Below, in pieces: positions 4,435-30,281 of a stretch of DNA of 64,000 nucleotides. The notes under the pieces are model-generated. The model searched no databases. It saw only the letters and a list, made by a program, of their open reading frames with translations, and had not been told where the DNA came from. The stretch is from contig CM041197.1 of the NCBI GenBank assembly GCA_023078555.1, forward strand, positions 3,320,501 through 3,384,500, written 5' to 3'. Position 1 is the stretch's first letter, and each line of letters begins with the position of its first letter. Position numbers and translations under genes: made by a program. Origin of the DNA: Ulva prolifera (lineage: Eukaryota; Chlorophyta; Ulvophyceae; Ulvales; Ulvaceae).

Positions 4435-7400
4435 GCACTGACGCTGTTGTTAGCCCCCCGCACGCTGAACACTCTGGTAATGGTTGCAACTGCCCCCGGA
4501 TCGGCGAGCGGGCTGCACTGATGTTGCCATATATAACAACGACTTCGCCGTATGAGGCACACATGAAGCATAAAAGAAAGGGTCTACTGGAGAGTACTGT
4601 GCCTCAGGCGAGACCCTCTACGTAGGCCAAGCGATCAACCCGATCCCGCAGCGACACATGCAAGTACACACTGAAGGGGCCACAAGAATGCAGTCTCTCT
4701 ACAAGTTGCGCCATGCGATCCCCAGCTCTGATGTAGTTTGTGATCAAGCACATATGAAGGGGCGGGGGGCTTACTGCGGCAGCGTTGGAAACGGCGTCTT
4801 CCGGCTCCTCTGGTGTGTTGCATTCGGTCTCCACCGTCGGGATTTCGGTGAGGTTCTCCCGCATGGCCTTCTCCCGCAGGAACTCGTTGATTTGATCTTG
4901 CCGCTTGAGCTGCTTCTCAACAAATGTGCCGGCTGCCCAGTTGGTGGGTAGCGTGATGAGGCATGAGACGACGGACACAAGGAGCGAGAGGCGGATCGCG
5001 AGCTTCAGGAAGCGGCAATACGCGAGCGCGTCGAAGCCCGCGCACACCACGAACTTCTCGTCGGCCATTGTGAAGACGGGCTCCATCCATGAGAACCACG
5101 TCGGCGGCAGCCGCGGCGGCCGGAACCTGCAGGGATGGGGGTAGTGAAATGCGCGGGGCGGGGGGTGGATGTGGCGAGAGCAGCGATGGATCCGGCAGTG
5201 CTGTGCACCGGTGTTGGGTCATCGGGCCCAATTACATGAAACAATTCCGAATATGCAGGTATGATTTCTGGATGGCAGCCCCAGAAATGCTGAAAAGCGA
5301 CCCAACACACCACACATGCTGTGTACGCGGTTGGAGCGCACGCAGCGTGACCGCAGCTGCTGTCGGCTAAGCAACCGGGCATGTCGGGAGCAGTAGATTC
5401 CGGGCACGGCCACAGCAGAGGCAGCGTTGGCGGGGTGAACGGCCGCATGAGGTTGCGGCGCTAAGTGTACTTAGAAACTCTCTTGCAGACACTAGCCTTG
5501 CGGGATGACGGAGGGGACACGGGCGGAGGAAAGGCGCGCGGAATGTAGTACAGATGCATGGACATCAATGTGGACAGCGATGTGAATGTACTTGCAAAGG
5601 ACAGAGGCCGAGCATGCCCCCGGTGACCGGAATCCACTCGCAAACCCACTCACGCGTTCATGGCACTAGGCTGGGCACGAGCGGGCGCAAAGCATTCGTC
5701 ACACACCATGGACCCACGGTCCCAACACCCCACGGTCCAGCACACCACACCGAGACGCAACCTCCGCCAATCAATTCAAATAATCCATAGCAGGCTGTCC
5801 CCAGCGACCATGCGCCTCATGCGACAACGGCACAAAACTATATGCCTCAGGGTCGTGCAAACAATAAGCATTGCGTTTCTGCACGTCCCGCACCACCGCA
5901 GCACCCCCGTCCTCCCGGGCTGCCAGGCCGCAGCAGGTATCAGCACAGGGGTTCACAGTCGACACATGCCCTGTGCGCAAGGGGTCGCCTGGCGGCATAA
6001 ACATGATGTCTCCCACCTTCTCACAGGCCAGCGTCCTGATTGAATGTGTGTATGTATGTATCAACATAGCAATGTGGATGTGGACACTGGTGAAGGTACA
6101 AGCGGCAAGGACGCAGCATGGGTGGCTTGAATGTGGTGCATGGCAGAGGAGGCGGCTAGCGAGGCACCGCAAGGCACATTTCTACAGCTTCACACGGCAC
6201 GCATCAAAGATTTCGAGCTCGCGGCTGATCGTGTTGGGGCGTGGCCACGCGTGGTATGGCCTGAACGGCGGGAGGAAATCAGCAGGCGGTTCGATCGAGT
6301 GCATGGAATCTGCGAGAACGGTACAGAGGCAATATGTGCAGCTTTACCTGTTCAGTTTCTGCAAGATCCTTGGAAACAGTGACGTCGGGCCTCCGACGTC
6401 ACGGCTTCTGACGATCCATGGTCCATGATGCCGGCACGACATGGTGCACGGATAGAATCGAGCGTGCCCACATCGCGCGGTGGCTCAAGCGGCATGGCGG
6501 TGTGTACACAATCACGGCCAAGGCCACAGCAGCATATGATGCAGCAATTTTCGACACGCTCACTAGCCAGCCTTCCGGAAGTCGGTACGATGTATAGATG
6601 CGGAAGTGGCTATGGTTTGGACACACGGAGGCAGTTTACCGTGGAGCACCGAGGAGCCACAGCGGGAATTGAACAAACACGGTGGAGAGAGAGAGAGAGA
6701 TGATATAGTGAAAAGTAGTGAGTCCCTGTGAATGGATATTGGCAATGCTATACTTCGCTGCGCGGTTCAGCTGCAGAGCCGTTATTGATAAACCGAGACA
6801 CCGCGATGCCAGGACCCGTCAACGACGAAGACGGCGACATGCCCGAAATTCATCGTAAGCAAACAAAAATGCAACACGAAGTCTCATTGTGACTGAGGCG
6901 CTGGGATACTGGGCGTCTGGAAGGAAACACTGACACTGAGGGGCATAAGCAACTACCACTGGCGCACAAAGCAACAGCCGAATGCAATAAACCTGATACA
7001 AACGCACAAATATTGCATCAACCTAGATACCGATAACTATCGAGCCTTCTGAAAGCGCGACACGCGAGGTTCTCTCTGAAACTGGCGTGGACGGTCCCGT
7101 TTGGCAGGGCTCAGGTTGTGCAGCACAGAAAGCATCCTGACATGCAGCAAAGCAATGGTAAATGTATGAAGTGGGCTACCAGAAAGTAAGAAAAAAATCG
7201 CAGCGCCATGTTTCTGCATGTACGGTGACGCAGGACTTGTGACTTGGCTGGACTCCGGCGCGCGGGCGACCGACGCACAAAGCGCACCTGAAAGGGATCG
7301 ATAGCTTCCGCTTTGCTGAATAGAAATCAGCAAGAAACGGCTGCCGCCGCAGGAAATTGAAGATGAAGAACACCCCAAGTGCTACGCCTCCGTTTAGCAG

Positions 7401-10045: not shown

Positions 10046-10878
10046 CTATGCCTTGGTTGAATTCTCGTTGCCGAAGCCACCAGTCGATCCAAAACCCCCT
10101 GCACCCCTGTCTGTCCCATCTAGGGACTCCACTTCTACTACTTCAGCAATCATGATCCGCTCGAGAACCAGCTGTGCAATGCGATCACCCTCTTTGATCT
10201 GCAAATAAGGCATCTCGATGTCCCATTGTCTGCATTTCAAGTGTGTTCGAGTTCTGACATTTTGAATTGTGATCAGTTTGAGAATCGCCCGGTGTACAAG
10301 AGCAGCAGAGACTTAACAGCTGCTGCGCTAGAAATGCACCATATTATGTACCTTTTCTACCTAAAGAAACGTGAATGCAGGAACGTGCCTGGAAGTCCTG
10401 GTCAGAGAAATTGAACAATATAACCTTCAGCTCTCCACGGTAGTCGCTATCAATGACACCAGCTCCGGTATCGATGCTGTGTTTGGCCGCGAGACCTGAC
10501 CTGGGAGCGACCCGGCCGTAGCATTCTGGCGGTATGGCCAGGCTCAGACCGGTGCTGACAATGTACTTGCCGCGGGCCGGGATCGTGCACGCCTCCGCAC
10601 TGCATGCACATGAATGGTTACAGTAGGCTTCTGGACTGCTGACACACGGCTCTTTGGCGGGTATACAATGGAAAGCAGGAAAGTGATGACGACCGGTACT
10701 TCCGGAGGAGCACCAAATGCCCAGACAGAGAAACAAACCTGGAGATATCGTAGCCAGCAGCACCACTGGATCCCCGAGTAGGGAGAGTTGCGTTTGCCTT
10801 GAGGAGCTTGACACGCAGAGCGGGTGGAAGACAGCGCTGCTTCGCGGGTGGCTCCACGACGGCAGGCCGCTCTGTGGG
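10046..10878 (-). CDS. DUT: deoxyuridine 5'-triphosphate nucleotidohydrolase (dUTPase), first exon not located
   Basis: dUTPase hydrolyses dUTP to dUMP and pyrophosphate, keeping uracil out of DNA and feeding thymidylate synthesis. It normally acts as a homotrimer. Exons read: 10878-10739, 10599-10389 and 10198-10046. All five family motifs are present in order: [32 protein letters not shown] with the catalytic Asp; [13 protein letters not shown]; and the C-terminal P-loop-like [10 protein letters not shown]. Junctions restore the family sequence exactly ([16 protein letters not shown] and [14 protein letters not shown]). The second junction requires a GC donor (CAG/GCACGT), so this is a GC-AG intron. 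The 10878-10739 exon follows a TTGCAG acceptor and has no in-frame ATG, so at least one upstream exon exists. An ATG at 11033 (MATLAPAN, then a GT donor) and a transit-peptide-like frame near 11.05-11.16 kb are unproven candidates. Confidence 0.93.
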
Positions 10879-12322
10879 CTGCAAGAAGCATAGGTTTGTT
10901 ACTTGAGATGACTGTTACCGCATTGACTTCACGATTGATACACATAGTGGCATTATGTATGACAACGGCTGCATTGACGAACGTTGTCGGCATGTCGACG
11001 CACCATCACGTTTGCAGGAGCTAATGTAGCCATGAGCTTACCCTCCACTGCTCTCAGCTCTTCGGAAACGATGCTTCTGACAGATAAAGCGGTGGTCGTC
11101 AGCCTGGACAATGTTGCGACCGTCCTGTTCAGCATTAACACTAGCCCGGAGTGCGAAAAAGCCACTAACTACAGCAGCGATCGCACAGGGAGGCACCTAC
11201 ATCTGTGTGGATTTAATTCAAGCTCGACGGACTGGGAGTCTAATTCGCTGCCTCGAAACGTCGTTCATTTTGCGAGGTGACATTATCGCGTCATGTCAGC
11301 AGCACGTAGCACGACGATGCTCAAGTACTTGAGGTAGATGAAGAGGGGAAGCCGATGCGAAGCCACGTCTTTATGACCGATGTACGTATTACTGACACCT
11401 CACACCAGGCAACAGTGTACATCTCCACAGATGTGGCATCGCGGGCTGACTCTCAGAGATCAGATTGAAAGTACGGCCGTCAATGTATGTCGATGACACC
11501 GGCAATCGCTTTCGTTGCAACGATATCAACACATATGCACTGTCCATGGCGGCATGTCGTCTGATTCACCGTGCTTAAGTTTGCGTTGCAGTGTCCAGCT
11601 AGCATGTATACACATCCAGCAGCTTTCACATGCTTCAAGCCTGCCAGGCGTCTCATGTACACTGAAGCCCCGACTCTGCCGACAGCCATGGGGAAGCTGC
11701 AACTGTGAGCCGCACAATGTGTCGATCTGTACACTACATAGCTGATGTCAGAGTTTTCCATATCCTGTAAGAGTATATCAACTTGGCAATTGCCGCAAAG
11801 CAGCTCAGAGGCAGGCGATCAGCGTTTGTTGACTTGTCCACCTGTAGCGATGCAGCGGGGGTTTGAGCAGCCTGGTTCTTAGCGCAGGCCATTGGCCTTG
11901 GCCAGTTTCACCACTGCAGCAACACCTCACCAGGAGCAGTAGGCACTGTTCACCTGCCTGGGTTGCCACAGCACCATTTTCAATCTTGATCAGTAAAACT
12001 GCATCACCGCTCTTTTGTGCTGTGCCACTACCACACTCAATATCTGATACATCGAAGCTCCTGGAACGTGTTCATTTCAGCCCTCTATCGCCAAATTGGA
12101 TTACATTCAAGCACACAGCGCTGGCGCCGCTCATATCTCACATCCGCATTAACAGCCGTCCGTCCAGACCAACATGACAGCTCAGCATGTATGTTCCTAC
12201 ACCAACACACCATCAAGCATCACCCACCAGCCCCATGCGCCACTGGAAACTCAATTTTGCACTGCCGTAAGACACGCTCCGGGTACCTGGCGGTCAGCCA
12301 CCGAGCATGAGCAGCACCCGCA
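10879..12322. other. region between the dUTPase and the checkpoint kinase
   Basis: This probably contains the missing first exon and promoter of the dUTPase, and the 3' untranslated region of the kinase gene. A TGTAA on the minus strand near 12105, about 215 nt after the kinase stop, may be its polyadenylation signal. I see no other supportable feature. Confidence 0.5.
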
Positions 12323-15300
12323 TTAGCGGCGGGCGTTGTACTCACTGACAACGCCCTGGGCCGCTTTCATCTCCTGCCACAGGTGTGGCCTGCCTGCCTC
12401 GCTCGCCTCCAGCTCCTGCACCACAGGCTAGCAGTTACACTCTCACTGTTCTCGCCCTTTAGAATCGTACACCATTACACAAAACGTGGGTCAACGGGCT
12501 CATAGAGGCCCACTCGCAGTGCAGCTCATTAGGTACATCACACGCGGCCGGTGGTGACATGCATGCATCACCGACGCTGAGACACCCGATCGGTATGAAG
12601 CACACCCAGGCACGCCACAAACGGAGCACCAGTCACATGAGTCGACGAAGCTGCTACAGAGACCGCAAGTGGAATCAGCAGGCAATTCTGCCTGACCAGA
12701 CTTACATCGCTGACGGCAAAAGCTCCAATCTTCCTGGTTTCGGGCCAATACGCCTGATGCATGCAAAACGAGGCAGTGGATTACGGAAGGGTGTTGACGA
12801 GGACGAGGGCCCATCGCAAGCCTGTCAGGCGTGTGCAGACGTAGCACACATGCACAGGGGCAGGGCTTGCGAGTGGCGGGGGCGCACCGCGGCGAGCTCG
12901 GCGATGAGGGGAGCCATGTCGGGGCGCTCCGGCGCGAGCGGGCAGTTGAGCAGCGTGCGCAGCACGCGGTCCCACAGCGCCTTGCGCAGGGTCGTGCGCG
13001 GCACGGCGGTCGTCGGGCGGACCACGAGCTTGGAGGAGGGGCCAGAGGTGAGGGGTTGCACGGTGGTCATATCGATGTACTTGCCGAGCAGCAGGGCGTG
13101 GATCGTCGCCGCGACGCAGAAGCAGTCATGCTGCAGCAGCGGCACCTCGTCACGATTTTAGGTATGCATGATTGCAGACATCCATAGGGGATTTTCGCAA
13201 CAAAAGCGCGTATCTTATGAACGCAGGGCTGCAGTCTATATCGGGCCTCTGTGAACTCACACGTGCAGCACCGGGAATTGTCAAGCGCCATGCCTCGCAG
13301 CGTAGGGCACAGGCGGGGGAGGAGGCCTACGAAAGCGATTGCGGCGCCACACAAGGGGCGTCATGCCGGCAGACATGGTGGGGCAGCTGCGATGGCGCAT
13401 TGTGCAAAAAGCTGGTCAGGCAGGGCAGTGAACGTCGCAGAAGCGACAGAACCACGGGTCTGCGTCAGCGCTTCAATCACACAGACATTGTACAAGAAGA
13501 AGCCAGCGGGAGGGGGGGCAAATCCACGGAGCACCTGGGCGGCAGCCATCCACCAGCCCAGACTCTTCACACACAGGTGTGGGGTCGGGGCGCACGCAGA
13601 AATGCCAGGGCTTCCCCTCGAGCATCTCCGGGCACTGCATGCCCTCTGTCGTGGAGGAGCCGATAAACTGCGTGCCTACCGGCAGCAGCTCGAGGTCGAT
13701 CGCGCGGCCAAAGTCGATGACCTGCAGGCAGCCGCCAGCCCACTCGCTGCCGTCGCGATCCGCCGCGGCCGCTGTCCAGCAGGGCGCCGCGGCCGCCACG
13801 CCGGCGTGGAGCTGCGGCGGCCACGCGAGGATGCAGTTGTCGGGCTTGATGTCGGTGTGGATGATGCGCGCCTGCTGCATCGCGTGTAGCGCCTGCATAC
13901 CCCACTCAGTGACATTCGGACCCCGCGGCAAAGACGAAACATGAAGAGGAACATCTACACTGTGCAGCGCCCCCCACATGTGAATGAGCCCTTATGTTGA
14001 ACACTGAGTGTGCTTGAGTGACATGCTTACAAGACAGCAGCCCACATCCTTTCGTAGAGAAGCAGTTTGCGTGGTTTATGAGAGAGGAGGTCGCACCAGC
14101 ACAAGCTGCAGAGAGAGATACAGCACGAGTGTCGCGCCAATCTCCCGCCCGGCTGACTTGTGCGAGTTCACCAGGTCCAGCAGCGTGCCGTGGCGACCCA
14201 GCGGCATCGCGAGGACCGACATGCTCGCGCAGCCGTTTTCGCTCGTCTGCTTCCGCGCGAGCGCCGCCCGCCGCGGCCGCGCCTCCGCCTCCTCACCCGC
14301 CGCGGCCGACATCACGATGCAGCGTGTGGGCATGAAGAGCGGAGCGTAGCGGATGCGCACGCGCGACACGAGTGCGCGCACGACGGCAAACTCCCACGGC
14401 GCGGCCGGCGCCGCGACCTTGAGGGCGACCTCCTCGCCGCTAGCGCCGGCGACGCCAAGGGCGGCGAGGGAGGCGCGGTAGACCGCGGCGTAGCTGCCGC
14501 GGCCGAGGAGGGAGGCGCCGGCGGCGATGGAGAGGCCGGGCACGCGGGCGGCCTTGCGGGTGCACACGGCAGCCACGAAGCCCTGCAGGTCCTTTGCAGA
14601 GACCTCGATCACCCCCGGAACCTGCACGGTTCTCTGGTCGATGCCAAATGCATGGGGCTGCATGATCCCGGGCTCCGGCAAGGCGGTGGCGTCGGAAGCA
14701 GAAGCACAGAACGAGGTTGACTGTTCCGGTAGATCGGTGAGCACAGCGGCCCAGAACCAGGCGAGCATAGTCACACTGTGCTGCAAACGGACGTCAGATC
14801 TGCAATGGGTGCGGACGTCAAGATAGAAGGCCAAACAGATCGCATCTGATCAGGCAAGATGCAGCGTATGAGTACATGGTCAACATCTGGACGGATCTGC
14901 ATGATGCACTTTCAACACAAGCCGCATGAATCTGCACACGACCCCACCGCCAGTGTGGCCAATTCATAAGGCTATGAAAGAATGCATACATACACAGATA
15001 CTGTCAACTGTCCCTACCGCAGTACCTGTAAGTGGCCAGCAGAAGCAAGCTCGGACAAGGTAGGCCATATTCAAGCACACCAGTATTTTCAAGTCAGGTC
15101 ATGCCGGGAAAACTCACCTCTCCAAGGCTGCCCAGCTGCTTCAGGTTGGATGAGGTGAACGAGTCCTGGAACGGGTTCAGTGTCGCCACGGCACTCTTCA
15201 GCGCCCCTGGCCTCCGCAGCGGCGCATGCTGCGCGGGGGGCGCCTGCACGCTCAGTGCCCGCCGCATGTGCCCCTGCACACCGCCACCCTCAGCCTCACC

Positions 15301-18300
15301 ATGCGAAGCAACACTGCTTTCTGCATCTCGCAGCAAGCACAAGGCACCCGCTCTTCAGGCGGACTGCTGAGCATCATGCAGGTCAAAATGATTCTGCGCT
15401 CGTGAGCACGCCGGAGCGGCAAGTGCAGGTGTCTACAGGAGGTGAGCTGTCCGGTATGAGCACATGACTTGGCAACACAGCGAGCCGTGCAGTAATCGCT
15501 GTAGCGCGGCATGTCACAGTATTTCTGCATGCGTAGCCAGATCAGCGATCAGGTCAACACAGATTCCGCTGCAATCGCCGTACCGGCAGCACTTTGTTGG
15601 GGCTCAGCGGGGGCCGGCCGTGGTGCGGGCTGTGGTTGCGTAGCGGCGACGCGCCCGGCGTGCCGCCGACACCGGTCGAGCCACCGCGCCGCAGGGGGCT
15701 CCCATGGGCCGACACGCCCCCCTGGTCCCACTCGCTGCCGCACTCACTGCCACAGGCCCCCCACTTGATCATCTCGTCCGGGTGGTCCTCAAGGGTGCAC
15801 AGCATGTCGCCAGCGGGACGCGCCCTCGGCGCATGCGGCGCCGCTCCGCGGTGAGCGCCGGCATTCTCCGCATCGTCGTCGCCGTCAAACGATCCACGCA
15901 GCGAGTGCGCGTCGTCTGAGGTGTCGGCGCGTTGTGGCTGGGCCTCCTCTGGCGCTGGAGACTCTAGCACGGCGAATTCCTCGGAGGCAGGGGAGGACGG
16001 GGCCGCATCTTGCAACAGGACGGAGGCGTGGGGGTGCGCAGCGGCGGCGGTGCCGGCGGGTGCCAGTGCCTGCGGTGGCACAAGGGGTGTGGATTAAGCC
16101 AGTGCTACTGTGCGGGCTGCGAGAATACGTGACCGTTGCTGCACGTAGCCTCAATGGACACGGCCACATGCAATGCCGTACTGGTGTGTAAGATGTGACA
16201 AACACACTAGCACGAATGCGCTTTCCACACTGCATGTGCCAGCACGTTTCCACTCACGATGAAATGTTGCAGACACTCTATACAGCGGCAATGCATCACA
16301 CTTGCGCACCATGGTGCCATGAGAGACCACCACATGATACGCACCGCTCGAGAAGGGCTGGGTGGCAGCTCCTCACTACCAAACTGCAGCCGCCGCCGGG
16401 CGCTGCCCTCACGCAGCCGCCGACCACCACCGAGCGCTGTGCTGCCATCTCGAGACATCGGAGCCGTGTCCTCCCGCACCATGAATGTCCCGGGCTCGGC
16501 CCCGCCCGCAACATGGCCCAGAGCCGTCCGACCACGTGCCCGCACAGCGCCCGAGTCCTCCCGCGCAGCGAGCGCACCGCCCTGCGCAAGAGCCTGCCGG
16601 TCTACCACTTCAGTGTCTTCACGCACGGCAAAGGAGCCGCCACGAGTAACCGCCTGCCTGTCTATGACCTCCGTGTCCTCACGGATCCCAAAGCCACAAA
16701 CGCCACCTCCACCACCTAGCGCCGTGCGGAGGCACTCGGTGTCTTCATGGACCTCAAACTCCGACGACAGCCCCCGGCCCAGCGCGGCTGCGGCCGCTGC
16801 ACCACCATCAGGAACTGGCGGCATGTCCCTGCTCTTAAGACCCGCCTTGTTGGAGTGTGTGGTGGCTCCCGGGGCGGCAGACACGCTCCCCTCGGCAAGA
16901 GCCTGCCTGTCAAGCACCTCTGTGTCTTCACGGACTCCAAATGCACCCTCCTGTGCCAAGGCGCGCCGATCCAGGACCTCTGTGTCTTCCCGGAATGCAA
17001 GCGAGCCCTTCTGCGACGATGCACGCTTGCCGACCACTTCTGTGTCTTGCCGAACACCGAACACGCTGCCCTGCGCCAGAGCACGGCGGTCTATCACCTC
17101 AGTGTCTTCGCGGACAGCGAAGGATCCTACCCGTGTTGATGCACGCTTGCCGACCACTTCTGTGTCTTCCCGAACACAGAACACGCTGCCCTGCGCCAGA
17201 GCACGTCGGTCTATCACCTCAGTGTCTTCGCGGACAGCGAAGGATCCTACCCGTGTTGATGCACGCTTGCCGACCACTTCTGTGTCTTCCCGAACACAGA
17301 ACACGCTGCCCTGCGCCAGAGCACGTCGGTCTATCACCTCAGTGTCTTCGCGGACAGCGAAGGATCCTACCCGTGTCGATGCACGCTTGCCGACCACTTC
17401 TGTGTCTTCCCGAACACCGAACGCGCTGCCCTGCGCCAGAGCACGGCGGTCTATCACCTCAGTGTCTTCACGGACAGCAAAGGATCCTACCCGTGTTGAT
17501 GCACGCTTGCCGACCACTTCTGTGTCTTCCCGAACACCGAACGCGCTGCCCTGCGCCAGAGCACGGCGGTCTATCACCTCAGTGTCTTCGCGGACAGCAA
17601 AGGATCCTACCCGTGTCGATGCACGCTTGCCGACCACTTCTGTGTCTTCCCGAACACCGAACACGCTGCTCTGCGCCAGAGCACGTCGGTCTATCACCTC
17701 AGTGTCTTCGCGGACAGCGAAGGATCCTACCCGTGTCGATGCACGCTTGCCGACCACTTCTGTGTCTTCCCGAACACCGAACGCGCTGCCCTGCGCCAGA
17801 GCACGGCGGTCTATCACCTCAGTGTCTTCGCGGACAGTAAAGGATCCTACCCGTGTCGATGCACGCTTGCCGACCACTTCTGTGTCTTCCCGAACACCGA
17901 ACACGCTGCTCTGCGCCAGAGCACGTCGGTCTATCACCTCAGTGTCTTCGCGGACAGCGAAGGATCCTACCCGTGTTGATGCACGCTTGCCGACCACTTC
18001 TGTGTCTTCCCGAACACCGAACGCGCTGCCCTGCGCCAGAGCACGGCGGTCTATCACCTCAGTATCTTCGCGGACTGCAAACGAGCCGCTCCGAGCGATG
18101 GCTCGCCGGTTTAACACCTCAGGATCTTCACGGACTTCAAACTCAGAAGCCTGGCCCCGGCCCGGAGCTGCAGAGGCAGCTTCATGGTCATCTGGCACTG
18201 GAGGCACATCACGGCTCCTGAGGCCCGGCCGCCGGGTGCGAGTAAGGGCGCCACGGGCAGCAAACGCACCGCTCTGCGCCAAAGCCTGCCTGTCAAGCAC

Positions 18301-19756
18301 CTCAGTGTCTTCACGGACCTCAAATACAGATTCTTCCTGCAGCGCCCTCCTGTCAAGCACCTCAGTATCTTCGCGTACCTCAAACTGCCTGAACGTGCCT
18401 CGCGCCTGCACAGGAGCGGATAGATGTCAACCGCACAGCTGACACATGCAACCATCAGCATCTGAACGTACAGACCTGCCGTCACATTGGGCGAGCCCAC
18501 TGCACTGGGCTCACACACACATTTGAGATTATTCAGGGGACCGCCGATGTATTTAGCCAGCTGTATTTAGCCAGCAGTGTCGCTCTAACGCAACAGCCGT
18601 TGAATCTCAGATGATGTTTTGGTCTGTCTGACAAAGCCACAAAACATGGCGACGGAAAAATTTGGGAAGGTGCGAAGGCTCACCTGGGCAGCGTGTGAGC
18701 CCGGATCACCCCCGGCAGTCCTGCGAGCAGCAAGCACCTCCGTGTCCTCGCGGACCGCAAAACTGCTCCCTCTGACACTCCTGGCGGTGTCATGGTCCGC
18801 AACTGTGTCATCAATCACATGGAACGGGGCGCTACCACCGGGCGGCTGTGCAAACACAGAGACCATGGGACGGGCGCCGTCTGGGGCAGCGGCAGCCTTC
18901 GGTCCGGATGGCTGGAAGCGGACTCGGCGGGCGGCGTCATCGGCCGCCTCCATCGCCTCATCCTCAAACGGCGACACCGGCCCGCGCTTGATCAGGGCTT
19001 TGCCTTGGCGGTGCAGCGTGATGGTGTCATTCAGGCCCTTGAAACGGCTGACGTCCGGGCTCATCGGCTCAGCGGCGGACACCTGCTGATCTGCTGCGGA
19101 GGGCTCGTCTGTGTCTCTAGGGGAGAGTCTTGGGAGGGGAGCTGTGTCGGCAGAGCGGTCATACACAGGCCGTGTGTCGTCATCAAACCTGCAGGACATT
19201 TCCGCCGCTTTACGTGTGGAATGCAGCAGGTGGCAGTACGCAGTTGACAGGCACAATGGACAATGTAGCAGTTGCAACAGAAATGAGTAGCCTAGCTGCT
19301 ATCTCAACAGCTTGATTTGTCCGGAAGAAGACAATTCACACGCATGAGTTTTCTCGGTTTTGGGCATGCTCACCAGAACTGTACACTCTACGGGTCAGGT
19401 GTGATACACGAGAAACACAGGAGGAGGTGCGGTGTCCGCACTGCAGGATCTCTGTATCTTCATGAATGGTAAAGTCCAGATTGACAGTCGACTGTCGACG
19501 CATGCTGCGGCGCCTAGACGCCCTGCTGCTGCCCCGCTCACGCACACTCAGGTCTGTATCCTCTGCACCTGACATCCAAGCTGCCTCGGATGCCCTTGCT
19601 GGAGAATCTTCTGTAAGAGCAGGCCTACTTGTGGGAGCTCCGGGTGTCTGTAGCCATGATGGCCGGGGCCCGATGGGATCTGGGATAGAGCCCAGCGCAC
19701 GGACAATCCTGCGTGTGCTTGGAGCCATGGTCCCATCGGTGTCCGGAACTTCCCAA
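12323..19756 (-). CDS. BUB1/MadBub-like spindle assembly checkpoint kinase with an expanded FxVREDTE motif array
   Basis: BUB1-family proteins act at kinetochores and help Mad3/BubR1 and Cdc20 restrain the anaphase-promoting complex. Exons read: 19756-19442, 19188-18684, 18405-16345, 16069-15584, about 15273-15118, 14780-14097, 13892-13596, 13145-12888 and 12415-12323. Phases agree throughout. The kinase has LGRGSYAAVYRA, VALKV and APWEFAVVRAL, then IIHTDIKPDNCIL, VIDFGRAIDLELLPVGTQF, TEGMQCPEMLEGKPW and DCFCVAATIHALLLGKYI. These are BUB1 signatures (HxDIKPDN, cysteine after TEG/TSG, EML.KPW). Catalytic Lys, Asp and DFG residues are present. An Ala-rich insert splits the catalytic loop from DFG. 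The 19.4-19.8 kb exon ends with FTIHEDTEI, which fits the ABBA consensus. The next carries FAVREDTEV, and the 2-kb exon about 28 related motifs. The start is unsettled: ATG at 19728 has a good context, but CTAAC plus ACAG just upstream suggests an earlier exon. The N-terminal TPR was not found. Confidence 0.85.
17021..18100 (-). repeat. 120-bp coding tandem repeat, nine units
   Basis: Nine consecutive, nearly identical 120-bp units lie in the large exon of the BUB1-like gene. Each encodes two related 20-residue modules: one like SFAVREDTEVIDRRALAQ and one like FGVREDTEVVGKRASTRVG. Units differ at few positions (for example GSA/SSV/GSV before F, and G/C after F). The 20-residue half-units are themselves diverged duplicates, so the array grew first as 60-bp and later as 120-bp units. 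More diverged modules flank it on both sides. The reading frame stays open throughout. Confidence 0.95.
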
Positions 19757-19882
19757 CTGTCAAGAATGTTAGCCAAGCGAACCTGTATGCGTGGCTGATG
19801 CGGTAAGACTGATAAGGACAACATTCCAGAACCGTACGCACGATCAAGCTGACTCTGGTTCATCACCAAGACTACATCACAG

Positions 19883-22030
19883 TCAGCATGCGGCCATATA
19901 TCTGCTGCAGCCAGAATACTCAAGCCTACGCTCGGCGTAACAGCAAACCTCTTCAACAGACAGTTCCTCCGCACTACGGCCCACTGGTGGAGCAAGGAAG
20001 CTCAAGCTGATGACTAAGGATGCTGTCTTCTCCTTCTTTTCTTTCTTCGAAATGGACCGCTGCACCGCGCCACCATTGCTGTGGCTTTGGTCGACAGCAT
20101 GGTATTTTCCTTCATGTGCAGGCGCTTCAATACCTTCTCCTGTTGGTCCAGGTTGCTCAGTCTTAACCCGTGGCTGCAGTGGTCTCCGCATTCTGTGTGC
20201 AGACTGCTCCATTCCTGCATTTCACTGGCATGTTTGGCCATGATGCTGGCACATGACCGCATTGCTGTACGGACCATTTTTAGGTTTTGAATTTTCATAC
20301 ATCGCATCTGAGAAAGGTAAGTCGGAGCATCAACTTGGTGGGCAACACCTCAGCATGATTGGTGGGCAAAGCGTTGAGCTACATTCCCATGTCAGCTCAC
20401 GAATTGCAGAGCGCCGTTGGCCACCCAATATAGCACGTTGTTCACAGATGATATGCACACAGCGTCGCGGGACTCCTTCAAGCCGCGAACCAGGTTGCCC
20501 TTGAAACAATCAGGCTCGCGTGAACGGCATAGACTAGCTTTGATAAAGCTGAATCATGGAAGCTGCTGTAGGATAAGTTTACGAACTGTGTGCATCAACT
20601 AAAACGACGATGTGCATGCGGTGCCTTTCTAGAGCTGTTGGAAACTGTTTGAGCGAGGTCTGTCGTAACATACGATGAAACTTCAACATGCGCGGGAGAC
20701 CACGCGGCCAAGACTACCGGCGTTCATCAGATGATGCGAAAGTGCAAAATGAATAGTATGTGAGATTCTATCCGCAGAGGGCAACAAACCTGTACATCTC
20801 TCGCCGCAGATCCCTGGACAATATGCAACGCGGAGGAAGTGTATCTGTACGCTTATCGTAACATGCAGAACGCCGTACATCTTGATTGAAATTTGTATGG
20901 AGTTCAGCCCCGCGTCCTGATGATGTAAACGTGTGTGGAGCTGATGGCCAACACGCTCGGATGAGCACGCAACACTGCAATCGGTTCAGACATCGAGTTC
21001 TCACACCGGAATGATGTAACATCACTAATCTGTATTGATTTGTTCTGCACTGTGCTCTTAGGAAGGGCGCTAGAGATCACTGGCTTCAAACGTAACTTGC
21101 TCGCGAGGTCTAACTTGGTCTGGTCTGCGGTGCAGCTGGTATCCACTACGCATAGACGATCTTATACCCCGCAAAAGCATTCAAAACTTTCCATCTGGGT
21201 GTTGTTGCGCGATCGTGCATTTGTTGCTGCAGACATTGCTTGGCGGAAGCGGGGTGACAAAGCCGTGCGAACGACTCTGGCAAGAGGAAACGATCGCACC
21301 TGAGTGCCCCAGCGACTTGAATCACAATCGGTGATGAGCAAACGCTGCGATGCTATAAACTCCACCTGTACGTCCTCATGCGGGCTGTTGTTACTCTCTC
21401 AGGTCACGGTCTTGTTCTTGAAGTCGCAGGCATAACACGCGGCCACATCCTTCCTAAACAATCAGCTGGATCTGTTGACTCTTTAAGGCGAGTGTCTCAG
21501 CATCCTGACTGGCGATCTCGCTGCCGCTGTTGGCAGATGCGGAGCTCGGTCGGGTGGCGTTGGTTCCCTTCATCCCCAGAGTCCCCGTGGCCACAAACGT
21601 TTTAACGCGATTGGATGACGGACGCCTAGCCACAATGTCATCCATCCATCAAGATAGAACACACGGTGCACCCTTCAAGAGTAACAACGGCGCATGCAGG
21701 TAGAAGTCTGATGTATGATTTCATCCGAACAGATGTTCAGATTTCTCAGCTTGTCATTCCGATTCGGTTACCCCGCAACACCTGCATCACCCACAAGACG
21801 CGCAACTGCATTCTGCCTGCACTGTAGACATGCACAGCTATTTTAACATCGTGTATGCAGTACGAGTAGCTGGGGGCCACGCGATACCGGAAGGAAGACA
21901 GCATCTGGGTAGCGGATGCAGGTGCCCGTGACAGCCTGTTCACGGCGGATGCCATTTGCGCCAGGCGAATTGTGGAGTGACGGGTGTGGCCTTTAGTGAC
22001 AGGCAGATTCCTGCTTCTTGAAGGCGGCAT
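19883..22030 (-). CDS. possible further minus-strand exons, unidentified
   Basis: Several minus-strand stretches look like exons but do not form a chain I can prove. One begins with ATG at 22030 (MPPSRSRNLPVTKGHTRHS) and runs to a GT donor near 21889. Others lie at about 21.46-21.64 kb (Ser/Lys-rich, GTLGMKGTNATRPSSASANS), about 20.95-21.15 kb (LDLASKLRLKPVISSALPKS) and about 19.95-20.22 kb (a basic stretch, then AEELSVEEVCCYAE). A second frame of the last contains HMKENT, a KEN tripeptide. These could be the 5' part of the checkpoint kinase gene, which begins directly downstream, or a separate gene. No domain is recognised. Confidence 0.3.
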
Positions 22031-22362
22031 GGCATCGTAATTTGGTTCCCTGACCAGAGCTATCAGTCTCTTGCACAGGCCGAGCTTCTTTCGAGGGCAT
22101 CTAAAGTGGATGCATTGCAAAGCCATCCGGATCATTGGGAGACCTAAATGTGCCAAACCAGTCGAACTTCAAGGTCAAGATCAGACTTCAGCCCACTGGA
22201 GACACAGCAGCGATCACGGACTCGATATGAGCAATACGTGAGACACGTACAGGTCCACATGATGCGACAGATGTGGTTGATACACTTTGTCTGTTGACCT
22301 TGGACGTGGCCAACTGACATACATTACACACGCACCATCTAGGATACCATGGGCATGGACAG

Positions 22363-22399
22363 GGCGCTAAGCTGCATGTCACATGATCAGCTTAGCGCC
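22363..22399. other. hairpin, 12-bp perfect stem
   Basis: GGCGCTAAGCTG at 22363-22374 is exactly complementary in inverse to CAGCTTAGCGCC at 22388-22399, with a 13-nt loop. It lies between the minus-strand exons to its left and the plus-strand gene starting at 23054. It is not followed by a T-run. The function is unknown. Confidence 0.7.
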
Positions 22400-23053
22400 A
22401 GTACGGCTGGATTGATGTAAGACTGTTTTGCATTTGGATGGTTCTGCGCTGCGTTATTGTGCAATGCCTGTGGTGCTGCCTACCTCTCCGACCTGGTGTG
22501 TATATGAAACACACAGGGCACCGCAGTGTGCACGGTGCCGCGTGCTGCGTGCGGCTTAGCCTGCCAACAATGTGCAAGCCAGGCGCGCTTGGCTGCTCAT
22601 GTGACAGGGAGGGCCTACAGCTATAGCGCCTAATGCTATGCCCGGTGTGCGCTGCCAGCACGTATGGATGTCGGACAGCACGCTTCGGTATTTCGCACAG
22701 ATGTGCGCAAACAGTCAACGCTAGTGCTGAGCGACAACAACGAAGTCTTCTGGAATGACGCAATCTCCTTGCGCTTCTCTCGCATCGAAACGCTGCACAC
22801 ACATGCCCACGACCTTTCGGGAATTTTCTATGATACATCGAGGAACACGAGAGATCTGCGTGTCGCAGCAGGCCAGGTGGCAATCATGCGCGACGCCGTC
22901 TGTCTGAGGGGTCCTGGATGTACACAAATCAGAAATCAAGAATCGGGAGAGCAATGTGTTGCTAGCGAAAGAGTGTGCAGCTGCAGTGTGCTTTCACGGC
23001 GTGTCAAGACTACAGTTTGTCGGCTGTGCCTGTCTCGGACATAAGATCTTACC

Positions 23054-26000
23054 ATGGGAGCTGATGAGGACCACAAGTCCGAGCAGGATGCAAAAGTAAC
23101 ATTGTCATTCACCGGCACAGATGTGTCTTTTCACTGTGGGCCCGCGGCAATCAGTATATCCGGTGACTGTGCTGATTGCTGCAAATTGCTCTCTAGCTTG
23201 CGCGAAGAGAGCGATGCTGCGGAAAACATTCCCGTTGCATTGTCATTTGACGCACTGAAGGCATGGGTGGCGTTTCTTGAAGGCAGGCAGAGCACCCCGA
23301 AGAGCCCCCAGGGCAGGAAAAACCTGTCTGACACGACACTGTTGCAAGCGCTGGAGGTAAGCACCGCCAAGCAGATCATGGGGATAATTGCCCGTCAACC
23401 TACGACCAACCGGGTGCATGAATACCGTATCACCGCTAATTATTGAGACCCCTAATTATTGGACCACTTTGCCACCCACCGCTAAGTAATTGGACCACTG
23501 CCACCAGCCACCGCTAAATATTGGACCACGGGTCTGCGAGCACGGTAAATATTGGACCGGTCCAATCTGGTCAAATATATTAGTAATATTAAACAGGGCA
23601 ACAGAGCTAAAAAATATGTAATTGTTGATAGCACACGGTTGGAACGCCTGATGTCCCCCGCTTAGAGCCATTGGCATAAGGAACACTCAGTCAGTTTTGC
23701 TACTGCTGTTGGGTGCCGCAGCAAATATTTGTTGCGGCACCCGCAATTGTCCCACTCGCCCGTGCCCGCTTGCGATCACGTTGCGGTGCCTCGAATAGAG
23801 GGCACAACCTGCGCCCGCCCACAACGGCAGGTGCAGCTGTTGCAGCCGGGCTTGCCTCAGACTCTTCTGTCTGCAGTGTCTGCACATGTTGCAAAGCACT
23901 GGGGTCCTCTTGCATCAAGTGTTGTTGTAGCTCCTCAATCGTCTGATCTACGGGCTGCACACTGTCCAGCTCCATCATAGACTCCTTGACTGCATCATCC
24001 TCAGCATCTAGAGGCGGTGCGCTGATCTTGGATTCCGGGAACAGGGGGTAGAACTCATTCGTCTCATCATACTGAGCAAGTCTAGCTCTGCTCACCACAT
24101 GAGCCCGCCTGTGGTCAAACATGCAGCGCAGTCCGCATGCATCCCAGCCTTTGATCACCATGTCCGGATCTCGCTTGATCCGGCTCCAACCCGCGTACAA
24201 AAAGCTTGGCATCAAGGGCTTCAGTGTGGACATCTTGAAATCTTTCAGGATATCAAAGTCACCTGCAAATCTGAAGCACATCAGCGCCCACATGGCAATT
24301 ATACGCGCACGGATACATATACACAGACACATAGTCAGACACACAAACATACATACTGACACACGACAGCTAGGTGCAGCTGAGCATACCTGTTTGTTGT
24401 GCCATTCGATAACGGCCCATCTGCCACTCACAAAATGACGCCATCACAGCATGCTTGAATGGCTTCTGGTAGAACTTGTCTTGAGGCTGAAGCTTTCCGG
24501 TGCAGCTTGGTGGCACATACAACACGAGGATCCAGGGATATTCAGTCTTCATCCAGTGCCGAAAATCTGCGCTGATGTGCACGGGCCAGCAGTCAATGAT
24601 GTAGAGTGCTTTCTGAGAATCGCTCAGCTGCAACTCTTCAATCTTGGCCCTAAAATATGGCACGAGAATCAATCGCACATAGTTCTTCTGCTCCAGCAAG
24701 TTTGACCAGTGGTTTTCTGTAGCTGTCCACTGCCAATCACTGAATTTTTTGCCTGATCGTCTGATGGCTGGAGGCAGAGAGGCACTAGTCTTCCCACTGA
24801 AAATCACCTGCACGTCATTGCACATGTTCTTACTCACAGGTGGTGTGCTTCCGAAGTTACAAAGCTCAAACACACACAACTCACTCACTGCACACATGAG
24901 ATGTTCATCATTCACACCTGTAGTCCCAGACTGTCACCTGATGCGGTCGTTGCTGGATTGACAGTAATCTGGCGCTTGTCTGCAAAACCAGTGACCGATA
25001 CATCCTTGCTGCCTTTGACAGCCCATTGGTATACTGGAGCGTTTACAAAACAAACTGCTGTCTGATCGGAGTTCACGACCAGCTCGGGTGGAATCTGATG
25101 GACATCAACAACGAAGGCAACCTGCACCCGATCTGTGTTGGAATGTTTGTTAATGAACATGAGGGGAAAACCTAGCACTGTGATTTGACGAAGCAAGTAT
25201 TTATCAGTCGAGCTGAGAACGAGAACATGCCTGCATTGTCAAACGTTCTCCCTTCTTCTCCCAATCTTCTGGCAGCTTTGATGCTTGTGTGGTGCACTTT
25301 CTGCGAGTCAACCCCAATTCATGCAGCAACTCTGAGCACCATGTGCTGCCAGCCTTGAATACACCACCATTATCTTCAAGAAGCTCTCCAGCACCAACCT
25401 CAACGAGGTAATGCTTAGCGATGATTGCCACCTGGGCAGCGTCAATTGGGATGTTCTTGTCCAGCATTTTATTCACCTACACAGTACCGTTGTCATTGCA
25501 GAGATGCACATCGGGCTGCAGCGAGAGAGTGCTAGCTGCAAAGCCGAGACACTGTTTGATTAATACAATATCAAATGATCGCTAGCTGGTGATAGCATAT
25601 GGTGTCGACGTGACTGCAAATTTCGGCGCTGCAACAACGTCAACGACGCAGTTGACAACGATCAGGCCGAACGCGACACACCTCCACTCCAATTCCAGCG
25701 CGAAATTCATCACTGACAACTTTAGGCCGTCCTATAGGCTTCGCTGGCGGCTTCGTATGCTTTGTACTGTCAGCAAGCTCTTCTCGGTAACGATGCAGCG
25801 ACTGCTTGCTGACATTGCAGAACCTGGGATGTATGCTCTTGATAAACTCGACCTTCTTGTTCAGCGATTCTCTGTCTCCCATCGCGTCTGCTAGATTGAT
25901 TGTCATCTGTTTCTCCTCTCTTGTTAGCTTCACGTACTTCTTCGGCTGCTTCACCTTCTCTGTATCGAGGAGCATCAAGAAGAGCGAGACCTTTTCGATA

Positions 26001-29000
26001 CCGTCCGTCTTGTTGTCTTCAACGATTAATAGCACAGACACGACCTTTCGAAGTGGATGATCGATCGCAGCAGCCTCGTCGGTATCTGCCGATGCAAGGC
26101 CGGCGTTCCGCACGACAGGCACTGATTTTGTCGCTCTTCTACTAGCGGTGCTCATTTTGAGATGACTCTGAGCATACTTAATGATATTGACTGCATGTTT
26201 GTATGTGCCTGCGCGTGCCCGGGGAAGGGGCTTGCAATCCGAAGGCAACATCGTGGGTCCCTAGCGAGAAAGGCTGTAGCTAAACGAGATGCGTGCAATT
26301 TGATTTGCGCCGCTTCATCTAACCGCCCAAAGCGCAGTCCGCAAAAGGATTGGACCGGCGTGTTCGTACGTTTTGAAGTTTTTGGACCAGCTGCCTCGAA
26401 TTAGCGGGGCTAGTTTCGGACCACCGAAAATTTTACTCGTGGTCTCAATAATTAGCGGTGATACGGTAGTTAATCACGCCGCTTTTGCGACGTGTTGTAG
26501 CATTGTGCTATCCGCAGGCTTGCAGGTGCTGTTTGCGACGTGAGCGCCGGCGAAGGCCACGAACTACCATGCGCATGGTGTGTAAATACGCGTGACAGCA
26601 ATTTGCTTTAACTGATCTTGCACATTTCTAGCTCCAGTCTGAGGTGCCGTGTTCATGTGACCTGTGCATGTGAACGCTCCTATCCGACGCCCCATGTCGG
26701 CATACTACATCCGCTGTGAAATGCCAGTAGCCGTACAATGCCACGCGTCAATTCCGATTGGTGCCTGATTTGCTCGGCGCAGCCTGTCGTGACCATCTAG
26801 ACGTCGACAGCTGTTGTCCCAATCTGTGCCATATGCATGACGTCGCCATATTCAAAGGGACGCTGGAAACCCCTGGACCGCTGTTTACTCAGTGCGTGGG
26901 CCAAATCAAATTAAAGTAAGCAAGCGAAATTTCCCGACACCCTGCCGTAGCAGCAGTTCCTGACTGCTCAAGCTGGCAGCTGTGATGTCCTAGAGCCCGT
27001 TCTCCCGTTGTGGCTGGTGCCTATGCAAATTGCTTGATCGTCTGGATCCAGCGCCGAGGCTTCATCGATCTTGTGCAGTGCAGGCTGCAGATTTCCTTCA
27101 GGATCAGAGCACATCAGATCTGATCGCAAGCGCACTCGCTCATGCCTTTGAACCCACTGCAAACACAAACGAGGAGGTGCGAAGCCAGACGCAGAGCGCC
27201 ACAGAACATCAGGTATTGCCTACACAAAGGCACCCCGAAAGATTCCAATCCTGTCAGAAACCATGCTTCTCGTCGAGCATATCAACGCCCCTGTAATGGG
27301 TCATGTTGTTATTGACATGCATGCGCACTTGGTTCCGTGATCGCCCGTGGTCAAAGTCCACGCCATCTCGCCCCTGCATGGAAAGACTGGCTCCGACGCG
27401 CACTGCTCACAGGCCGTCTCGCTGCCGGTGGTGTGTGCACAGCACCACCGCCGCCTGACGAGCCTGCTCACGTGCAGGCCGAAGCGGGTGCTCTGGTTGC
27501 AGCAGGTGAGCGACACGAACACAACGGGGCCACCGCGGCGCTGCGAGGCGCCTCTTCGGGCTCCAGAGACTCGGATTCAGAGCTCCCGGCGGTCGCCGCG
27601 GCGTCCCGACGGACCCTTGCCCCCACCGCCGCGCAGCGGGCCCGCGCCGCGTCGGTGTGCACTCAGCCCTTGCCCTCCCTCCCCCGAAAGATACATGCAT
27701 GAGCCTGATTGTCCGGCAGAGTACAGCCACCCCTCGACCACCTCTCTCGAGTTCGGATCATCCAGATCGCGGCCCACCCCGTCTGTATCTTGCAGCGTTG
27801 CTGTAGTCAGGGATCAGGGCGCCGGTGATCGTCGATTGTTGCGTGGAGCAATGCCGCATGTAAAGTAAAGCACAGTAAATTTATATCTACCAACCGTGTT
27901 GTGAAGGGGACATTGACAACTCCGAATGAAGGCGGTGTCACACGCCATTTATGCTCTTCTCGGCCTTTTGGAGTTAGCTCACTCCTCCTCCTCCTCGAGG
28001 AAGCCTTGCCAATCGAGTGCCGGCAGGCTGGAACATGTCATTGGCCAGGCTCTCGTGGAGTGCCGCTCCGTTCATCAACGTGCCTGATGCAAGGATGGTA
28101 GCACGTCAGCATGACCACTGCAGACTGCCACCCGCACACATTTGCGAGCCTCCAGAAACCGGACGTCACAACCCTGCCCCGACACATGGTCAAGTGCAGA
28201 TCCTCCGGGCGGCGCCTGTGCGTACCATTCCGCGCCTCTTTGCCGCCATCCACCCCCGCCCTCTCTCCACCGCCCGCCACGAACTCGCCACGCGGGCCAG
28301 CGACGCCTCGGCCCTGCGCCACCTCCTCATGCTGCTTCCTGCCCCCATCCTCCCGGCCGTCCTCCATGCACGCTTCCCCTCCATCCAGGCCGATCGCTGC
28401 CTCTCACTCCCGGAAATGCCGGCCCTTTCCAAAAAAGAGCTCGACCCACAACAGCCTACTTGCCTACCCCTATCTGCCATGGCAGTTATGGCCGCCGCAC
28501 ACTTTGCACGACCCTCTACAGTCCTCCCAGCTGGCGGCGATGGCGCGGACGACCGGGGGACCTCGTCCGCTCCCGAGTCCCTGAAACGGTGGCGCACCGA
28601 GATGAACAAGCCTCACAAGCTGCCCCGGAGATCCTGGCGCCTTCACGCCTCCGCTCCACTTGAACTCTTCCCACCGCGGCCGGCCGGCGGCGAAAGCACA
28701 GACAGCAGCAGCGGTGCAACGGGCGGAGATGACAGCGCCGCCGATGAGGGCGGCGGCGGGGACGGGGACGGCACCGCTGGTGCCAGCGACGGTCCCGCAG
28801 GGTCTGATGACTCGGAAGACGCCTGGCTGGAGGTTCACGATGAGCTTGAGAACAAGTGCAAGGAGCTGCTCCCTGCCGCGGAGTGGGAGGCGCCAGGTGC
28901 AGGCATTACGCAGCTGCGACTTTCGCTGGAGCCGAGTCAGATGAGAGAGCCGTGGGCGCGGGGCACGCTCGCGATGTCGCTGCTGGGGACCCTCCGCAGC

Positions 29001-30281
29001 CTGCAGAAGCTCTCGCTCGCGTCGCGCTTCGTCGGGAACGGAGACGTCGACGTCGACGCGCTGTGCACGAGCCTGCACCTCCTGCCGGCCCTCACGGCCC
29101 TGCACCTCACCGCTGAGCGCCCCGCGCACATCGACGGCGAGCTGGAGCCGGAGACGCAGCAGCTCCTCGGCGGGATCAGCATGCTACCCCGCCTCGCGGA
29201 GCTGGCCCTGGAACGCTGCTTCATCACGTCGGCGAGGTGGCACCGGCTGCGGGACCCCGTGCGGCCGGACCAGACGTTCGACCAGCTGTCCCGGCTGACC
29301 GGCCTGACCAGCCTCAGCCTGCGGGACAACCTCGTGCGGCGGCGGGACGTCGGCGTGAAGCTCGGCAAGGCACTGCGGCGGCTGAAGCGGCTGCGACAGC
29401 TCTCTGTTGCGAACATTGACGACGGGTCGACGTACGCGATCGACGTCTTGATCAATACCGGGTTTCCGGACCTGGAGGCGCTGAATTTCGGGGGCTTTGC
29501 GATGGCGGATCTGGGGCGGCTGGCGCATTGCTTGATTGCGAAGGCGCATGGCGCGGGCGTGACGGCGCTGGGGCTGGACCATGGAGTGGACTTTCCAGGG
29601 GAGGCGGCGGCGGCGGCGGCGGTGTTCACGCAGGTGCCGCAGGCGTTTCCGGCGCTGCAGTTCCTGAGCGTCCGGCATGCGCAGATGGCAGATGCAGGGT
29701 TCCACGGCCTCGCGGTGGTGCTGCCGGAGCTCACGGCACTGCACAGCCTGGACGTCGCGCACAACTGCGCAACGCATGAGGGATTGCTGTCGCTGCTGGC
29801 CGCGGCGGTGAAGCTTGGTGATGATGCGGGCCAGGGGCTGCGGCGGCTCGGGGTCGCCGGGGCGCACGTCGGGCCAGACCGGGCAATGCAGATGGTCGGG
29901 GCGCTCACGCCGCTGACCTTGCTGGAGGAGCTGGATCTGTCCTGCCTGGACCTGGGAGCGGCCGGCGTGAGGGGGGCTGTGGAGGCGCTGGCGCGCATAC
30001 CGCACCTGCGTGCACTCAACGTGTCAAACAATTGCCAGGCGGCCGCGGATGTCGAGGCGATGCCGCCGCTGCTTGCTGACCTGAAGGGCCTGCGGCGGCT
30101 GGTCATGCATGAGCCGGAGGTGAGCGACACGGCGGCGGTGCGGGCCGCGGTGGAGGGCGCTGCGCCGTGGCTTGAGGCGATCACGCTGGGGAGGGTTTGT
30201 GAGCCGGTGGACGAGCTTGCCGGCGCTGTGGTGTGGGGGTCCTCCTGGATGCCGTGGACCCCGGAAGAGCCCTGGATGTGA
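23054..30281 (+). CDS. BTB/Skp1-fold plus leucine-rich-repeat protein, paralogue 1
   Basis: Four phase-0 exons: 23054-23356, 27084-27176, 27478-27654 and 28200-30281, giving about 884 residues. Exon 1 and exon 2 join as LLQALE-AADFLQDQ, the end of a Skp1/BTB (POZ) fold, which commonly links to cullins. Exon 3 is a low-complexity linker ending TAAQRARAAS, matching PTQAQREQAFE in the paralogues. Exon 4 starts ILRAAPVRTIPRLFAAIHPR and carries an acidic Gly-rich stretch and then repeated LRRs of the ribonuclease-inhibitor-like type (LTGLTSLSLRDNLVRRRDVG; LLEELDLSCLDLGAAGVRGA). Intron 1 (23357-27083) contains a whole pogo-type transposon. A partner role in a ubiquitin ligase is only inference from the domain pair. 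TGTAA lies 34 nt after the stop. This is the most diverged of the three copies. Confidence 0.82.
23425..23450 (+). repeat. left terminal inverted repeat of the pogo-type element
   Basis: This 26-bp sequence is the exact inverse complement of 26441-26466. It is preceded by TA (23423-23424), the target duplication. Confidence 0.95.
23700..26155 (-). CDS. pogo/Tigger-like transposase (DDE_1 superfamily), five exons
   Basis: It cuts and pastes the element by DDE chemistry. Exons: 26155-25682, 25476-25231, 25121-24918, 24807-24390 and 24262-23700. All phases agree, giving 634 residues with no stop. Exon 1 has a basic helix-turn-helix-like region (KKYVKLTREEKQMTINLAD, NVSKQSLHRYREE). Exon 2 resembles the CENP-B-type second DNA-binding region (GSTWCSELLHELGLTRRK). 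Exon 3 has the first catalytic Asp in ELVVNSDQTAV. Exon 4 has the second in ALYIIDCWPVH and the third in GKLQPQD, next to the typical WILVLYVPPSCTG. The C-terminus is acidic and ends NICCGTQQQ. The exon 2 donor is GC (CAG/GCATGT). All signature residues expected of an active enzyme are present. ATG at 26155 is the first in the frame. Confidence 0.87.
26441..26466 (-). repeat. right terminal inverted repeat of the pogo-type element
   Basis: This is the exact inverse complement of 23425-23450, followed by TA at 26467-26468. Confidence 0.95.

Follow-up and report, generated by a model that had tools for sequence, protein, structure and literature searches.

The closest described counterparts of the locus reported here are BUB1-family proteins that dock Cdc20 through short ABBA motifs. 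The ABBA consensus is given as Fx[ILV][FY]x[DE] or Fx[ILV][FHY]x[DE] (PMC5717348, PMC11286163). The motif is described as held by three non-polar side chains, that of position 4 (P4) included, with the Asp at P6 in a salt bridge, and the P5 Glu of Acm1 is reported to contact Lys333 of Cdh1 (PMC5717348). Bub1 recruits Cdc20 through its ABBA motif, in C. elegans solely so, and the human and C. elegans proteins as presented there combine a kinase with one such dock, whose P4 is aromatic or His by consensus (PMC7614552). In the BUB1/MadBub family, ABBA motifs occur in repeat arrays according to Tromer et al. (2016); Physcomitrella patens MAD and basidiomycete and stramenopile proteins are among the BUB1/BubR1-family members with repeated ABBA-type motifs, and KEN1 is described as typically lost in kinase-bearing paralogues (PMC5204127). 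In a model of Arabidopsis CDC20, His replaces Tyr at two key residues of the ABBA groove (PMC9357983), which makes an altered partner in the green lineage conceivable. Arabidopsis BMF1 is described as a BUB1-type kinase apart from BUBR1-like functions, and only one BMF gene is reported for chlorophytes, Micromonas and Volvox among them (PMC12526889). Arrays of repeated short kinetochore motifs are also known from the MELT repeats of KNL1, where both the protein and the motif differ from those described below.

The gene analysed here lies in a 64-kb window, by which we mean the whole stretch of DNA under study. It shares a kinase with human and C. elegans BUB1 and with Arabidopsis BMF1, and repeated ABBA-type motifs with the published arrays. 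Because such arrays were published for the family in 2016, the array as a kind is already known. The present protein differs from the MAD example named by Tromer et al. in bearing a kinase, in lacking any KEN box across the 1,709 aa of the model, in its approximately 30 copies, and in its P4 Arg and conserved EDTE. It differs from human and C. elegans BUB1 in carrying a large, mainly Arg-type array rather than one motif, and from Arabidopsis BMF1, for which we saw no mention of such an array (PMC12526889). The original prediction held that no homologue with this copy number was known. We found no report of an Arg-type array of about 30 copies on a kinase-bearing protein in the open-licence literature, among the matches listed; as a statement about family arrays in general the prediction is too broad, since these are published (PMC5204127), though we saw no copy numbers given for them.

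The gene model comprises 10 exons on the minus strand, running from 20212 to 12323, with GT-AG borders and a single reading frame of 1,709 aa (Table 1). Eight of its nine introns are in phase 0. Splice sites were picked by hand, without a gene finder or transcripts, and the joining of the repeat exon to the kinase exons in one transcript is a prediction of this model. The span originally proposed for the feature, 16345-19756, is correct at its lower end, which coincides with the exon 4 donor; position 19756 is a possible alternative acceptor, and we prefer 19782 as the start of exon 2. Where the gene begins is uncertain, because an AG directly 5' of the ATG could serve as an acceptor for additional upstream exons. 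Codon scores choose the proposed frame in exons 3, 5 and 6 but not in exons 1 and 2, and the model of those two exons rests on the motif, the splice sites and the open frame. At the exon 1/2 junction there is a stretch that resembles GLEBS by eye, with 0 matches in a PDB search. Exon 6 resembles CDII, likewise by eye only. GC3 climbs along the gene, from 0.49 in exon 1 to 0.94 in exon 9.

Table 1. Predicted exons and repeat blocks of the BUB1-like gene (window positions).
Feature	Position	Strand	Content
Exon 1	19949..20212	-	ATG to GLEBS-like stretch (EELSVEE...) at exon 1/2 junction; start uncertain
Exon 2	19442..19782	-	FTIHEDTEI, strict ABBA consensus
Exon 3	18684..19188	-	FHVIDDT and FAVREDTEV
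Exon 4	16345..18405	-	28 FxVREDTE-type modules; donor AGCG/GTGCGT
Block L	18016..18405	-	homologous to block R; modules for the most part older and diverged
Homogenised tandem core	17017..18075	-	8.8 copies of a 120-bp unit (a pair of 20-aa modules) at 96% matches
Block R	16561..17022	-	older diverged modules including FEVHEDTE; 64% identity to block L
Exon 5	15584..16069	-	weak FAVLESP
Exon 6	15118..15273	-	NPFQDSF...
Exon 7	14097..14780	-	kinase N-lobe and beginning of C-lobe
Exon 8	13596..13892	-	kinase catalytic loop HTDIKPDN and DFG
Exon 9	12888..13130	-	kinase C-lobe
Exon 10	12323..12415	-	C-terminus and stop

The strand of the repeat exon needs separate treatment. The plus strand opposite the array is open for 743 aa (16211-18442), and in exon 4 the codon score of one antisense frame exceeds that of the sense frame (0.055 vs -0.084), the score having been trained on very GC-rich kinase exons. 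Antisense coding was nevertheless rejected, as the codon differences favour the sense frame. Differences between modules fall on sense third positions in 334 of 505 cases, and pN/pS is lowest in the sense frame at 0.163, compared with 0.319 for the best antisense frame. Together with the minus-strand location of the kinase, these results argue for minus-strand coding of exon 4.

The C-terminal part of the protein supports the assignment of the gene as a BUB1-like spindle-checkpoint kinase, as originally proposed. When the spliced C-terminal 379 aa are searched against the PDB, the six best matches are all BUB1 (E 4.4e-28 to 1.1e-22, 4qpm among them), and the next family follows at E 2.9e-4. 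Pfam returns a Pkinase match slightly above its cut-off (E 1e-7), and the signatures VALKV, HTDIKPDN and DFG can be read in the sequence. Exons submitted to Pfam singly gave weak or spurious matches only. Upstream, neither nine minus-strand ORFs (20017-22993) nor the three minus-strand frames taken in full (20.2-23.2 kb) matched TPR; this is a weak test, as the full-frame method brings the kinase itself only to E 0.009. A PDB sequence search with the array gave no match, and scans of viral contigs with array and kinase patterns gave 6 and 3 pattern matches, with 0 confirmed relatives. Neither an Rfam scan nor a tRNA scan of the window gave a match.

A loose pattern finds 32 FxVREDTE-type modules in the protein, in good agreement with the roughly 30 first noted: exon 4 accounts for 28, exon 3 for two, and exons 2 and 5 for one each, that of exon 5 being weak. 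The two modules placed originally in the exons preceding the array, FTIHEDTEI and FAVREDTEV, lie in exons 2 and 3, and exon 3 additionally holds FHVIDDT. Windows matching at least 5 of the 8 motif positions number 29. At the DNA level the EDTEV pattern occurs 24 times in the window, against 0.01 expected, always on the minus strand and between 16607 and 18749. The strict ABBA consensus, Fx[ILV][FHY]x[DE], is matched by two modules, FTIHED and FEVHED, precisely the pair singled out beforehand as exact (1000 residue shuffles: mean 0.06, maximum 2), and a relaxed consensus without Arg has 4 matches (shuffle mean 0.69, maximum 6). Without Arg at P4, ABBA counts do not exceed those of shuffles. When Arg is permitted, Fx[ILV][FHYR]x[DE] is matched 28 times (1000 residue shuffles: mean 0.19, maximum 2), 26 of them with Arg at P4. 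Across the 32 modules P4 is Arg in 28, as the first description had it for most copies; Ile and Leu occur once each, and ABBA-type Phe, His or Tyr occurs in 2. The remaining ABBA positions (Phe at P1, Ile/Leu/Val at P3 and Asp/Glu at P6) are satisfied by 29 of 32, namely the 28 pattern matches and FHVIDD. Outside the ABBA positions, Thr occupies P7 in 29 modules and Glu P8 in 28, and P10 is Val, Ile or Leu in 29. In both strict-ABBA copies the His codon is CAT, a single step from the Arg codon CGT used elsewhere. Decayed repeats can be discerned by eye near aa 418 and 879 (n=2) and stand outside every count.

Substitution patterns delimit the conserved unit. Over motif positions P1-8 pN/pS is 0.16, compared with 0.73 for the linker. 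Grouped by column in 13 of the 32 modules, pN/pS is 0.13 for P1, 3, 4 and 6 and lowest, at 0.06, for P5, 7 and 8; it is 0.60 for P2, 0.65 for P9-10, 0.73 for linker positions P11-17 and 0.96 upstream. The difference (motif minus linker) lies between -0.74 and -0.37 in 500 bootstraps. The modules outside this test are 16 more copies from the core and three weak ones, at aa 324, 982 and 1089. Selecting the 13 modules by motif pattern biases the result towards conservation at the patterned columns, although P8 is in none of the patterns, and we therefore reran the test with each tested column excluded from module choice. The outcome was similar, with P5 Glu in 13/15, P6 Asp in 13/14, P7 Thr in 12/13 and P8 Glu in 12/15, while P4 was Arg in 11/14, His in 2/14 and Ile in 1/14. 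The 15 windows for P5 lie beyond the core repeats. Comparisons by module class point the same way: dN/dS is 0.10 for the motif and 0.34 for the linker in eleven modules outside the core, 0.05 and 0.63 in nine FAVREDTE-type core copies, and 0.03 and 0.41 between the two core module types, whose dS of 2.6 is near saturation. The nine FGVREDTE-type core copies depart from this: their few motif differences are all non-synonymous, with 0 synonymous. Purifying selection is otherwise confined to the motif, with the linkers weakly constrained, and this distribution fits docking. P5, P7 and P8 are held at least as strongly as the ABBA positions, beyond what ABBA requires. We read the functional unit as eight residues, longer than ABBA, with P2 free as in ABBA.

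The array has a layered organisation. The homogenised core sits between blocks L and R and alternates two module types, FAVREDTEVIDRRALAQGS and FGVREDTEVVGKRASTRVGS. Modules are spaced by exactly 20 aa over aa 459-859 and irregularly elsewhere, by 20 to 132 aa. Since the outer blocks are 64% alike and the core is near-identical, we infer that a block duplication came first and that the two-module unit later grew between the copies. A stretch reading RSRDVPPVPD or KSRDMPPVPD is conserved in both outer blocks.

Recent expansion of this kind, suggested by near-identical 120-bp units, would also be expected of a non-specific folded beta-solenoid or flexible spacer that arose by unequal crossing-over and whose copy number has little selective value. 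For eight core modules, the best AlphaFold2 model is built almost wholly of beta structure, with a pLDDT of 61 and a pTM of 0.51. The other four models have mean pLDDT of only 24-36, and a comparison of the best model with the PDB gave none with E <=0.001 and a top probability of 0.10 among the best 50 of 159 matches. AlphaFold2 is itself reported to draw confident yet unrealistic beta-solenoids for perfect repeats (PMC11795689). We therefore distrust the modelled solenoid and set it aside. Diverged block R modules are modelled at low confidence, with pLDDT 45 and pTM 0.10, and look disordered. A solenoid or spacer also sits poorly with the irregular spacing outside the core and with purifying selection confined to the motif, and we consider such a non-specific array distinctly unlikely. 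In a charge-hydropathy analysis the core falls slightly on the folded side at 0.114 (kinase 0.284). On balance the models lead us to predict a disordered array, with moderate confidence only.

The linkers raise a different possibility, that the RxxL of DR[RQ]AL together with the ABBA-like part acts as an APC/C degron or pseudosubstrate, governing destruction of the kinase or inhibiting APC/C. RxxL occurs 30 times in the protein (shuffle mean 11.9, maximum 24) and R[RQ]A[LIV] 17 times (shuffle mean 0.60), so the enrichment behind the initial reading of RxxL as a minimal D-box is real, although it is due in part to tandem copying of the modules. The D-box reading itself is weakly supported: core linkers such as RRALAQGSAF, inspected by eye, have no terminal Asn (RxxLxxxxN), and RxxL gives way to GKRAST in one of the two module types of the core. 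With linker constraint as weak as described above and no KEN box, a degron or pseudosubstrate role appears improbable. The basophilic-kinase pattern [RK][RK]x[ST] has nine sites in exon 4, which by eye lie within the KRAST-containing linkers of a single type of module. A reading of the array as PP2A-B56 sites was rejected, with 0 LxxIxE matches within exon 4.

The strong conservation of P5, P7 and P8, together with Arg at P4, means that the ligand may be something other than the standard ABBA groove. One form this could take is a phospho-switch, in which a mitotic kinase, for instance MPS1, would phosphorylate the acidic Thr of E-D-T-E-[VI]-[LIV], and the phospho-motif would then dock either Bub3, in the manner of MELT, or a reader of FHA type; kinase and FHA preferences are taken here from general background. 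Such an array would replace the MELT repeats of KNL1, reported absent from plant KNL1. The nearly invariant Thr and Glu, the hydrophobic P10 and the lowest pN/pS of any column group at P5, 7 and 8 are as this reading would have them. REDT lacks the hydrophobic residues of MELT, however, and [MI][ED][ILMV]T matches once, as IDMT in the kinase, and nowhere in the array, so that a direct match to MELT was rejected. A phospho-switch also leaves the conserved P1 Phe and P3 Val/Ile unexplained, and we regard it as unlikely.

The explanation we favour, and hold to be about evenly balanced between right and wrong, is a BUB1-like kinase with a multivalent putative Cdc20 dock derived from ABBA. The long middle region would be an array of docking sites that arose from a single canonical ABBA motif or a small number of them, with each module binding weakly to a WD40 propeller, that of Cdc20 being the most likely. 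In this arrangement P1 Phe and P3 Val/Ile would enter the groove and P6 Asp would form a salt bridge, while P4 Arg, with Glu at P5 and P8, may suit the motif to an altered groove. Many weak sites per chain could raise local Cdc20 at the kinetochore through avidity or rebinding, and in turn promote checkpoint complex assembly or Cdc20 phosphorylation. A more specific version, which we put forward only tentatively, is that this lineage shifted checkpoint Cdc20 capture to an array of about 30 sites on a KEN-less BUB1 kinase, and that F-x-[VI]-R-E-D-T-E co-evolved with a changed groove, perhaps gated by Thr phosphorylation. If the modules do bind Cdc20, copy number would be a possible natural dial of checkpoint strength, for which MELT copy number in yeast Spc105 is a precedent (PMC7292645), and P4 Arg would show groove and motif changing together. 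Should they bind another partner, the array would be a new kinetochore docking code.

Several neighbouring loci were recognised in the window. A DNA transposon at 23414-26477 has 37-bp terminal inverted repeats that are 89% complementary and a minus-strand DDE_1-like stretch slightly below the Pfam cut-off (E 2.4e-4). Its start falls inside the end of a plus-strand ORF (23045-23446) that looks by eye like a paralogue of another at 31406-31960 (VTLSF.../VKLSF...); neither ORF has a match in Pfam. A split dUTPase gene lies on the minus strand at 10046-10898, where the last exon matches Pfam at E 4e-10 and the hand-joined product matches the PDB at E 1.8e-56. Its best match is 3so2 ('Putative uncharacterized protein'), presumably from Chlorella, followed by 4oop, presumably from Arabidopsis, and a green alga is accordingly the likely source of the DNA. 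A minus-strand exon at 4607-5218 encodes an RSN1_TM domain (Pfam E 1.2e-14). Three large plus-strand ORFs (27978-30278, 35941-37887 and 49570-51627) look similar, both of those tested have weak leucine-rich-repeat matches, and the three are possibly a dispersed gene family.
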